Shown: in pieces, positions 9,196 to 13,858 of the stretch
How the letters are laid out: every line of letters starts with the position of its first letter
Position numbering within the stretch: position 1 is the first letter of the stretch
NCBI GenBank assembly: GCA_037367355.1
Contig: CM074699.1
Coordinates: 2,170,001-2,234,000 of the forward strand
Origin: Neoscytalidium dimidiatum
Taxonomy: Eukaryota > Ascomycota > Dothideomycetes > Botryosphaeriales > Botryosphaeriaceae
Length of the DNA stretch: 64,000 bases
Reading direction: 5' to 3'
The notes under the pieces: generated by a model
What the model saw: only the letters and a program-made list of their open reading frames with translations
The model's database searches: none
Told to the model about the DNA's origin: nothing
Position numbers and translations under genes: made by a program

Positions 9196-12100
9196 ATGGG
9201 GCGCCATGATAAAAATACCGACAAACCACGTATGAAAAAGCTTAGCAAGCTCGACACATCTTCCTCTGCGTCACAACCCCGCCGTCCCGCGTCTTACTCT
9301 TCTCTGTCCTTCACCTCCGATACGCAAGCACACATTGCACCTAATACACCTAGCAAGTCTACCTCTTTTGCGTCCAAATCTTCCGTGCGGCGGTCATCCT
9401 TCTCAGCCGATACGCCAATCGCGTCGAATCTCCCCCCAATTCTTCAAGCGTCGCTCTATAAGCCGAGTGTCAGACGATATGCACATGATTTGTTAAACAG
9501 CGGACAGCTGGATGACATAGCCCTCGTTCATGCTGTAAGGGCTTTTGCGGAAAGCAGGGGCTTGGTTGACAGTGTAGTTGAGGAGTGTGTGACAGAGGTA
9601 AAAGCTGAACTGGCAAAGAGACGGCCTCCGGAGATTACCGCTCCAGCGCCTACACTTAAGAGGAAACGCTCGTCGTCTATTTCTCGAGACCCCCGCAGCG
9701 CTACACCAATATCTCAGAATCATACTCAAAAATTTTCTCCTGGAGGCACTCCGCTCGCGAAACCATCCCTGGGATCAACCTTTCGCCAACAGAAGCGGCG
9801 GTGGGACCAGCACAAGGCCATTGTCGACGCACATAAACTGCCAATTGACAGTCATAGAGCCCATAGTCAGCCACGAGAGACTGAGCTGTCAACGCACTCT
9901 GATTCAGCCGGCCGCCTGAATAATGCCCTGTTTGAACGCCATGCTGGAAGTACCTCCGTGGCAATCCAGACTGAAGAGACTGCGGCTTCCGATGATTCAG
10001 CAGATAGATCAAGTGTGGAATCCGAGGAATCCGAGGAATCCGAGGAATCCGAGGAACAGACTAGCAAGAAACGAAAGCTCTCGCATGACAATGTGAACGG
10101 AGAAGAGCATAAGGCATTCGAGCTCGATTCTTCGCCTCCTCAGTCGCCTCAGTCTGAGCACTTCACATCAGACGACGATGAAGAGGAGAAAGCTGGTGTT
10201 CCTGACCACGCCCAGGATTCAGAAGCTCAATCTGAGTCGGATCCCGGATCGGAACAGGACTCAGAGGTGGAAGCAGAATCCACTCGGAATTTCAACCGAG
10301 CTGATCACATTCCGAATGTGGTATCCAAGCAGCCAGAGACACGATTACGCCGCACCCCTCAGCATTTTGAAGTTGGAACGAAAGCCCCTAGCTGGCAAGA
10401 AGGAGTCGCCATCTCTCAAAGGTTGATCCAAAGTCTTGCGCCCCAGCCGCAGGATACCTCATCCGTTCAGGTTCCTACCACCCAGCCTCAAGAAGACTCG
10501 AAGTCGGACTCTGGATCCAGTTCACGCTCCAGCTCCAGTTCTGATTCCGAGTCCGAGTCCGAGTCTGTTTCTGATGCGGGCTCAGTGTCAGACTCGGAGA
10601 AACCACAAAGTCAAAGGCCCGACGGTGATGCTCAACATACCGCTACTCTAGGCTCGAGCCTTGGCAGATTCTCCGACCCCGTTGCGCCTCAGCCCGAGGA
10701 ATCTTCTTCCACAACAAGTCCTAGCTCAGATACAGACTCAGCTCCTGATCCGGACTCGAGCTCAGAAGAGTCTTCAGATTCAGAGTCTATTTCAAAATCC
10801 GAGCCTCATGCTGCTTCAGAGCCAGCCGCTGACAAGTCTTCAAGTCCCATGTCTTCTTCCAAATCTGAGCGTAAGCCTCGCACCACTTTGAAATCGGCTT
10901 CAGAGACGTCAACAGGTTCCCCGTCTTCTTCCACTTTCAAGCACAAGCTGCCTACCAAATCGGTGCTGGCCTTAGACAGGTCTTCAAGTCCGGCACCATA
11001 TTCCAAATCAGAGCACCGTCCAGATGCGGAGTTGGCTTCAGAAAAGTCTTCAAGTCCAATGTCTATCATAAACTCTAAGCTCTTTGTAAATGCAGACTCA
11101 ACCTTGAAACAGTCTCTAAATCCTGCGAAACAGCAGTTGGAAAAGACAAGTCCCCCTTCAGACGCCAGGTCTAGTCCTGCTGTGAGTCCGCAAGTAAAGC
11201 TGGAAGAGGATCCAAGCCCAAAAGGGCCTGTTGGACATTTCGTGTGCGTCCGAATTGAAACGGCTCCCAAAAGCTTTGTGAGCAAGGGGCCTCTCTGCGA
11301 TTTGGTACAAACCAGAGATAGTGCTCCGCCTGAGGTAGAATCATCTTCGAGACGAACCCATGTTGCCACCCAAAACAAAGGCGGAACCCCTGAAGACGAG
11401 CAGATGCTGGGTGTCGAAGACGAATTGAAATCGGAGAACCATGAGTTTCTAGATGACGCCTCCTTGGACGAAAATGAGGCTCCCCGATCAGATTATCCTG
11501 TTTCTTTAGGTGATGACAACGGTAACGATGAGGACATGCCAGATGACGATGTATCAGAGCCAGATGAAGATGAGACTGAGAATGACGCTTCAGAGGAAGA
11601 TGAACCAGGCTCCCCGATCAGATTATCCTGTTTCTTTAGGTGATGACAACGGTAACGATGAGGACATGCCAGATGACGATGTATCAGAGCCAGATGAAGA
11701 TGAGACTGAGAATGACGCTTCAGAGGAAGATGAACCGCCCCCACGAAAGACGTACATTGTTTCTTTCGACAAGAATGAGGATGCTGATGAGAACACTGAT
11801 GAGGACGCCGATGAGGATGCCGATGAGGATGCCGATGAGGACGCCGATGAGGATGCCGCGGATGACATCCCAGAGGATGTCACAAAAGATCCATCGCGAA
11901 AACGTCGTGGGACCTCTGAAGATTATCCATGGATCTCTGACAGGAAAATCGGACGAGAAGCATCGGAGAGGTCAACCATTTCAAGTGCTCGCAAGAATAT
12001 ATCAGCGAAAGTCGATCAGGCCGAATCTCCGAAAAATGGTACCCGACCAGCTGCTACATCTGCTCTACATCTCCCTTCCACTCCACCGATAGCCGAAGTA

Positions 12101-13858
12101 GTGCATGAACAACAAGCTTCCGACACTGAGAGTAGAGCAACCTCTTACGATCAGGAGCCTAAGGGATTCTTCGGGCCTGATGGTCGTCTCTCCTCCCAAA
12201 AACGCCGCACTGGTTTGCGTTCACAGCACTTTTCCCCGCCCCCAAGCTCCCAGAAGTCAAAACGCCCACCAGCTGGAACAGTTTCGAGCCTGCCTTTCCC
12301 CTCTGTCAAAGCTCCCCGCTTCGGTCTGATACAAGAAGAACTCGCGCACAAGCCTTTCCAACTCCTCATCGCCGTCATTTTCCTCAACAAGACTAAGGGC
12401 ACCCATGCTATTCCGAAGTTCCGCGAATTCGTTGCTCGCTATCCAACACCGGACGAGCTCGCACACGCGAATTTACTTGATGTCATCTCGATGATCCGCA
12501 CGCTCGGCTTGTACAATACGCGCGCAAATACGCTCATCGAATTCGCCAAGCGCTGGCTGAACGACCCGCCCCAATTCGATCGGCGCTATCGCACCATTAA
12601 TTACCCCTTCAAGGGCGCGCAGAGAGACATCAAGCCCGGCGAGATCCTGGACGATGCGGACCCGAGGTTGGCAGCGTTCGAAGTGGGGCATCTGCCTGGG
12701 GTCGGCGCATACGCGCTGGATAGCTGGCGGGTCTTCTGCCGCGATGTGCTGAGAGGCGTGGCGCTGGATTGGAATGGTTCGGGCGTTGGGGATGAAGGGT
12801 TCGAGCCGGAGTGGAAGAGAGTCAGGCCGAGTGATAAGGAGTTGAGGGCGTTTTTGAGGTGGATGTGGCTGAGGGAAGGCTGGGTCTGGGATCCGGATAC
12901 GGGAAAGAAGAGGCTGGCGAAGAGTGAGGAGGTGACGGATGCTGTGGAGCATTGGAGGTGGGATCAAGAGGCAGGGGAGGAGGTGTGGGTGGACAGGACA
13001 GCAGTAGGTGGGAAAGATGTTGGCGAAGATGATCCAGACGAGGCGGAGGCATCATCCGTACAGGAGAACGGTTATCGCGGCTCGGTTGAGGATGATGAAG
13101 ATGCTGGCTCCTCGGCCGATGACGAAGCAGAGAAAGACGAAAGGTCTTCTGCTTCTTCTCAACAAGTCGAAATGGTCGACGATGAGTACGAAAGCAGTGA
13201 TCCAGTCGCCACTCAGCTCGCCCGTGAGGTAAGCCTGTCGCAAGCCCGCTCCAAGTTACAGGTTCCTGCTACCCAGCCTCATGGCTCTGCTTCCCCGGCA
13301 AGCGTTGCTGCCGTCGTGGGTGACGACGACCAAGAGGATAATGCAACCACGGAAAAAGCAACGGATAGCGAGGACGATGATGATAAGAACGGTCCGAACT
13401 CTTATCTAGAGGGCGTCGCACAGTTATACAGGCGAGCAGAGAAGAAGGCGAAATGGTATTTTTCGGGGACCGTAGAGGAGACGCCGCCGCCGGAAAGCCC
13501 TGGAGCCAGACCGACGAGTGAGGCTCGGGAAACATATGAGGACTCGGAGCCAATCGAGTATTGTAGCGACGATGAGGGTGATGACAACGAAGACGGAGAT
13601 GTGGAAATGGGGGAGGCTGAGAGCGTGGTTGGTGGTGTCCGAGAGGCAAGTCCTGAGCTTTGAGAACCTTATTTATACTACTATCTTCCACGGATCTCGT
13701 CTTCGACTGATTCGTGTATCCGAAATTTTTAGGCCTTGGATGATGAGGAACTGGATGCGATTGTCAACAAAGTTTTGGGGGACATGAACATAGTCACCCC
13801 GCGACGAGATGCCGACGAGGCAGGGGAAGGGAAGGGAAAGGGTTGTGTAGTCATGTAA
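9196..13858 (+). CDS. MBD4-like HhH-GPD DNA glycosylase with giant acidic N-terminal region
   Basis: Proposed exons are 9196-11509, 11640-13645 and 13733-13858 (about 1481 aa). The first roughly 990 residues are disordered, Ser/Asp/Glu-rich, with ESE and DEDA repeats. Around residues 1007-1190 sits a helix-hairpin-helix glycosylase domain: it begins KPFQLLIAVIFLNKT, has the hairpin LPGVGAYALDSW near 1123, and SDKEL with the candidate catalytic Asp near 1170, followed by FLRWMW. This matches the order in vertebrate MBD4 (G/T and G/U mismatch repair), but no methyl-CpG-binding domain is visible. The reading frame is broken by a perfect 130-bp tandem duplication; without splicing, translation stops at 11643 before the catalytic domain. 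Removing 11510-11639 restores it. A GC-AG intron (13646-13732, GCAAGT...TTTTTAG) would replace the stop at 13661-13663 by an in-phase exon ending GKGCVVM. If that intron is not used, the protein ends at 13663. The domain call is strong; both introns are inferred. Confidence 0.8.
10021..10056 (+). repeat. Four 9-bp repeats coding for ESE units
   Basis: The unit tccgaggaa is present four times without change inside the glycosylase gene and encodes an acidic Ser-Glu-Glu run. It is in frame and could vary in length between strains. Confidence 0.9.
11477..11736 (+). repeat. Perfect 130-bp tandem duplication inside the glycosylase gene
   Basis: Bases 11477-11606 are repeated exactly as 11607-11736. 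The period of 130 is not a multiple of three, so the second copy shifts the frame. Each copy contains tttctttag followed by gtgatg (junctions after 11509 and 11639), that is, a pyrimidine-rich AG next to GT. Splicing 11510-11639 would erase one whole copy and restore the frame. Confidence 0.95.
11798..11857 (+). repeat. Five 12-bp repeats coding for DEDA units
   Basis: Near-identical units gatgagga(c/t)gcc encode repeated Asp-Glu-Asp-Ala directly after the 130-bp duplication. Together they mark this part of the gene as prone to replication slippage. Confidence 0.9.
13646..13732 (+). other. Proposed GC-AG intron near the end of the glycosylase gene
   Basis: The donor is GAG|GCAAGT, the consensus of the rare GC donor class. 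CTGAT stands about 20 bp before the acceptor TTTTTAG. Both junctions fall between codons of the same frame. The downstream 41-codon exon is open, acidic like the preceding protein, and ends in TAA at 13856-13858. Confidence 0.55.

Follow-up and report, generated by a model that had tools for sequence, protein, structure and literature searches.

The window, a stretch of 64,000 nucleotides, carries on its plus strand a gene for an MBD4-type HhH-GPD DNA glycosylase (positions 9196 to 13663) of a fungus related to the Botryosphaeriaceae; its reading frame is broken by a tandem duplication. Sequence comparison revealed that a 130-nt unit (copy 1, 11477–11606, plus strand) is followed head to tail by an identical copy (copy 2, 11607–11736, plus strand), with 130 of 130 positions matching, as reported in an earlier note on this DNA. 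The bases flanking the copies are unlike (G at 11476 versus C at 11606; A at 11477 versus G at 11737). Thus, the unit has a single register, with no one-base slide, and the junction is devoid of microhomology. A search of the 43.76-Mb assembly (40 contigs) located the unit nowhere else, and an exact tandem copy of this length is far beyond chance.

As 130 is not divisible by three, translation begun at the normal start runs into a TGA, and the N-terminal part of the protein is cut off from the catalytic domain. The duplication splits a frame that comprises 1445 codons when one copy is left out into two overlapping ORFs, both on the plus strand. The first ORF (815 aa, 9196–11643) encodes the acidic and serine-rich N-terminal part and ends at the TGA at 11641–11643, located 34 nt into copy 2. 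The second ORF (716 aa, 11513–13663) is open from the ATG at 11513 to the end and contains the catalytic domain. Residues 1–31 of this ORF are copy 1 translated in a foreign frame. The frameshift to an 815-aa product lacking the catalytic domain, also described in the earlier note, was therefore confirmed. Rfam and tRNA scans of the whole window were empty.

HhH-GPD was the sole domain found by Pfam. The match to PF00730 (12366–12583, plus strand; positions 1–67 of the 108 of the profile) is intact and located in the 716-aa ORF; the 815-aa ORF gave no Pfam match, and no MBD domain was detected by Pfam in either ORF. The 15 best of 27 matches to PDB sequences were MBD4 proteins (best E-value of 2.6e-21). 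The domain therefore appears to be most similar to MBD4, with its conserved residues kept, the glycosylase function being putative. Of the 50 columns that are conserved in 95% or more of 211 homologues, none was changed (0 of 50; mean of 0.41 for the homologues), and the catalytic domain seems free of decay. The domain matched only itself in the genome at an E-value of 0.001. Four further HhH-GPD loci were found, the best by E-value being 36% identical over 39 aa, and by this comparison the gene has no close paralogue.

The six closest relatives (P0001, P0002, Diplodia corticola, Lasiodiplodia theobromae, D. seriata, and D. intermedia) were 62–64% identical over 80–97% of the 501 residues searched. 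The C-terminal ending ASPEL is found here and in five of the six, P0005 ending in ASLEL. As the six relatives all end at this place, a candidate GC-AG intron near 13650, at the 3' terminus of the gene, was dropped. In all six, FVCV, a motif upstream of the site, and RRGTSE, a motif downstream of it, belong to one protein, indicating that the ancestral frame ran through the duplication site. None of the six contains a tandem repeat with a period of 30–69 aa above 35% identity, and they thus represent the single-copy state at the above level of identity, the linker itself aligning poorly. No close sister species was found among the homologues searched, and the homology search with the N-terminal ORF gave no match at an E-value of 0.001.

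The part of the glycosylase gene that holds the unit encodes an acidic linker prone to repeats. An in-frame 12-nt array of seven units, detected by the repeat scan (11775–11858, plus strand), adjoins the duplication, and gaps are present at its place in the six closest relatives. Elsewhere in the gene, the N-terminal part contains a perfect 9-nt in-frame array of 4.4 copies (10017–10056; SEE repeats), and a 23-nt repeat, 91% identical and reading QVP[TA]TQP, is shared by the N-terminal part (10468–10490) and the C-terminal tail (13259–13281).

Tandem arrays with periods of 20–2000 and identity of at least 90% were searched in 314 kb, comprising the window, 200 kb of C1, and 50 kb of C2. The 130-nt duplication was the only array with a period greater than 72 nt. 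Periods of at least 40 were detected at two further places, both inside long open frames and with all periods multiples of three. One is a perfect 60-nt tandem duplication (C1:1115966–1116085; two copies), which leaves a minus-strand open frame of 718 codons unbroken. The other is a long in-frame 12-nt array (C1, about 1103107–1103260; EPTY repeats; detected at periods of 48, 60, and 72) within a 577-codon open frame.

The behavior of these arrays bears on the possibility that the genome has one copy and an intact gene, the second copy resulting from an assembly or consensus error. We regard such an error as unlikely. A duplicated stretch of consensus would produce identical copies, and the intact downstream frame and fully conserved domain would be expected of a working gene. 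However, the other exact tandem arrays of the 314-kb sample keep the frame, and the small number and length of the contigs (40, two of them of 4.87 and 4.76 Mb) suggest that the assembly was obtained from long reads, which easily span 260 nt. The duplication is probably real DNA.

The duplication is also likely to be recent. The absence of change at 130 sites bounds the divergence of the copies to about 2.3% only (rule of three), so that youth is likely but unproven; full identity is not a proof, as gene conversion could hold the copies alike. Fill-in end joining or slippage in the repeat-prone stretch may have generated the duplication, two origins that the sequence cannot tell apart. Most simply, the duplication is one more expansion of the linker, in this case out of frame. 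The head of the unit (11477–11530; APRSDYPVSL) resembles the segment just after copy 2 (11737–11790; PPRKTYIVSF), 129 nt apart in frame. Scores as high were obtained in 67 of 2000 codon shuffles for the head, and in 17 of 2000 for the whole unit. This likeness is only suggestive of an older, diverged 129-nt linker repeat behind the duplication.

The earlier note proposed that the duplication is a newborn intron. Each copy holds TTTCTTTAG/GTGATG, and the note was right that removal of 11510–11639 restores the frame exactly; by arithmetic only, 1445 open codons then result. Near the site, 96 GT-AG pairs of 35–400 nt, the proposed one included, keep the frame open to the end. Splice signals were scored with a model built from 25 introns of the genome chosen for CTRAY, GTRNG, and a length of 42–90 nt, the weights for position +5 and the branch site being set by hand; such models rest on few introns and are poor predictors of efficiency. 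Within the searched limits, the model introns were 47–88 nt long (median 56–59).

The proposed donor, GTGATG (11510–11515, plus strand), had a score of –0.11, and a better-scoring donor near the site, GTAACG (11522–11527, plus strand), had a score of 3.63, both below the scores of all 25 model introns. No CTRAY branch site was found within reach of the acceptor at 11639, the best match being CCGAT, with a score of 2.17; selection for CTRAY ensured that no model intron scored below 7.12. The acceptor (11626–11639, plus strand), which has a pyrimidine run and ends in CTGTTTCTTTAG, was at the 28th percentile of the 25 model introns and is the only normal splice signal at the site. Its pyrimidine run corresponds to the codons V-S-L within the motif APRSDYPVSL. 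The caution expressed in the earlier note on the donor and branch site was thus justified, and the acceptor, which it had called strong, is normal to good, with a higher score than the best AGGT site had in about 91% of the random windows. The total score of the proposed pair was 7.3, that of the best variant 11.99, and that of the weakest model intron 16.6. The proposed pair ranked 10th among the 43 frame-restoring pairs scored with the model, within limits other than those used for the 96 pairs.

The donors used in this genome were analyzed in groups of candidates sharing an acceptor, defined by a CTRAY branch site and flanking open, codon-biased frames. A GTRNG donor was present in 25 of the 32 groups, versus 6.1 expected, the other classes being at or below expectation. 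A looser variant of the analysis gave 22 of 30 groups versus 5.7. An ORF-based search returned 2043 donors, mostly background, with an excess in GTRNG, and only GTRNGT was enriched (1.6 times) in a test of the whole sample without coding filters. A first iterative splice model, which drifted into background (819 'introns' with a weak donor preference), was discarded, and a search that was unbiased as to the donor and applied strict coding scores yielded 32 pairs, too few for use.

Genome-wide word counts provided an independent check on the 25-intron model. On both strands, donors were counted 25–50 nt before CTAAC followed by CAG. Because reversed controls differ from the patterns in base composition, word counts from the 314 kb were used to rescale them; expectations were also computed directly from the word frequencies in that sample. 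GTAAGT was found 411 times (24–29 expected) and GTGAGT 261 times (23–35 expected), about 7–17 times expectation. The counts of the two donors at the site were 69 for GTGATG (55–78 expected) and 22 for GTAACG (19–23 expected). With CTGAC as the branch word, the 156 occurrences of GTGATG represented a seeming twofold excess over the uncorrected reversed control (76) and fell below expectation after correction for composition (193–218). The raw reversed controls for CTAAC were 109 for GTAAGT, 66 for GTGAGT, 62 for GTGATG, and 134 for GTAACG; GTAACG was found 59 times with the reversed branch word CAATC. The counts of GTGATG and GTAACG thus show no excess, indicating that the donors at the site are not detectably used in the species.

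The length of the putative intron was considered separately. GTRNG donors at 121–160 nt numbered 14 versus 6.0 expected, indicating that longer introns may exist. GTAAGT followed by CTAAC and CAG at 104–142 nt was found 58 times, twice the word expectation (29) and below the raw reversed control (108), indicating that introns of such length are few.

The splice site is ordinary among random coding windows. In 20,000 random 130-nt windows drawn from 27 long ORFs, AGGT occurred in 34%, and a site scoring at least as high as that of the duplication was found in 7.1% of all windows and in 21% of those with AGGT. When any frame-restoring pair was considered, 32% of 2,000 windows equaled or exceeded the best pair found here within the same limits (11.8). 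The unusual element is the acceptor, matched or beaten in 9% of the AGGT windows.

Together, these results make it improbable that the spliceosome removes 11510–11639, or a similar segment beginning at the 11522 donor, and that the glycosylase is still made. Exact restoration of the frame, the AGGT in the unit, the normal acceptor, and the intact, single catalytic domain are all consistent with such splicing, and introns of similar length do exist in this genome according to the GTRNG and GTAAGT counts, although the reversed control at 104–142 nt exceeds the GTAAGT count. Tandem duplication is a known source of introns, PMC3443670 listing 188 events and PMC4974935 describing cases, and weak sites are possible in new introns, as described for Drosophila in PMC2809761. 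However, neither donor is detectably used genome-wide, the branch match is only CCGAT, the scores of the proposed pair and of its best variant are below that of the weakest model intron, and 7% of random windows do as well, or 32% when any frame-restoring pair is counted. It is likewise quite doubtful that the locus is an intron caught at birth, in which an AGGT exon duplication is tolerated and a fraction of the transcripts is spliced from a kind of donor that the species hardly uses.

Tandem copies can recombine. The locus might be a switching gene, turned off and on by recombination between the copies, or a split gene, in which the catalytic half (the 716-aa ORF or a shorter one) is produced from an internal start. 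The 716-aa ORF, open from its ATG to the end, would allow the latter, and among the matches listed some homologues from other genomes have a length of no more than about 395–500 aa, indicating that a long N-terminal part is dispensable in some cases. Against this possibility, the 31 residues that follow the start codon at 11513 belong to a foreign frame, and a split or switching gene appears very improbable.

We conclude that the locus probably carries a recent frame-breaking duplication that is not usefully spliced and generates a null or split allele. The 130-nt duplication would have recently arisen in the acidic, repeat-prone linker of the MBD4-type glycosylase gene, and translation from the normal start would halt at the TGA after 34 nt of copy 2. 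The spliceosome would most likely remove neither copy usefully, since the fungus uses other kinds of donors and branch sites than those present here. With the frame broken and the duplication probably unspliced, the allele would be null, or at best a split gene with the catalytic half produced only via an internal start or transcript. The null allele, mentioned as an alternative in the earlier note, thus fits better than its preferred newborn intron, which is disfavored by the donor counts, the branch site, and the comparison with random windows. Against the conclusion of a null or split allele, selection against a null might be expected for a gene with a fully conserved domain and no close paralogue; the lack of decay would be accounted for if the event were very recent, if the catalytic half still worked, if the assembly were wrong at this site, or if some transcripts were spliced. 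The good acceptor, and the G+C content of the unit (0.47), which is close to that of the model introns (0.49), also count against it.

If the duplication is spliced, it would be an intron gain by tandem duplication at zero divergence, whose missing signals are predictable from strict donor and branch rules. An intron at birth would enable selection on the donor and branch site to be watched from the first step. If it is unspliced, it would be a useful negative, showing that in a genome of this kind an intron cannot be predicted from a duplicated AGGT by itself, since AGGT is common in coding sequence. The locus would then also provide a naturally occurring loss or split allele for a repair enzyme of the MBD4 type.

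The small tandem duplications generated by end joining in PMC8355091 are, like this one, short, exact, and head to tail, here with no junction microhomology; those described there are from mouse and human cells, with units mostly below 100 bp. For the present unit, such an origin is an inference. The gene resembles MBD4-type glycosylases in all 50 conserved columns, in its best PDB matches, and in sharing the C-terminal ending of five of six relatives, and differs from them in the frame broken upstream of the domain and in the lack of an MBD domain detectable by Pfam. That AGGT duplication can give rise to introns is well established, with examples in ATP2A1 (Hellsten et al., 2011), fission yeast (24-bp AGGT repeats), and potato RdRp (PMC4974935; PMC3443670). 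A spliced case here would therefore join a known kind, although an unusually young one. In the description of PMC4974935, the ATP2A1 duplication had a polypyrimidine tract and a branch point, and most splice signals of the potato RdRp intron were inherited from an old intron. The present locus offers an AGGT exon duplication, single-copy relatives, frame restoration by arithmetic, and an acceptor with a pyrimidine tract; it offers neither a donor of the kind used in the species nor a branch site in reach of the acceptor. Thus, it differs from the three systems in a donor and a branch site that are not of the kinds of its genome, and in that its splicing is putative, and it resembles them in the head-to-tail duplication of an exon piece with AGGT, from which the omission of one copy leaves the protein unchanged.
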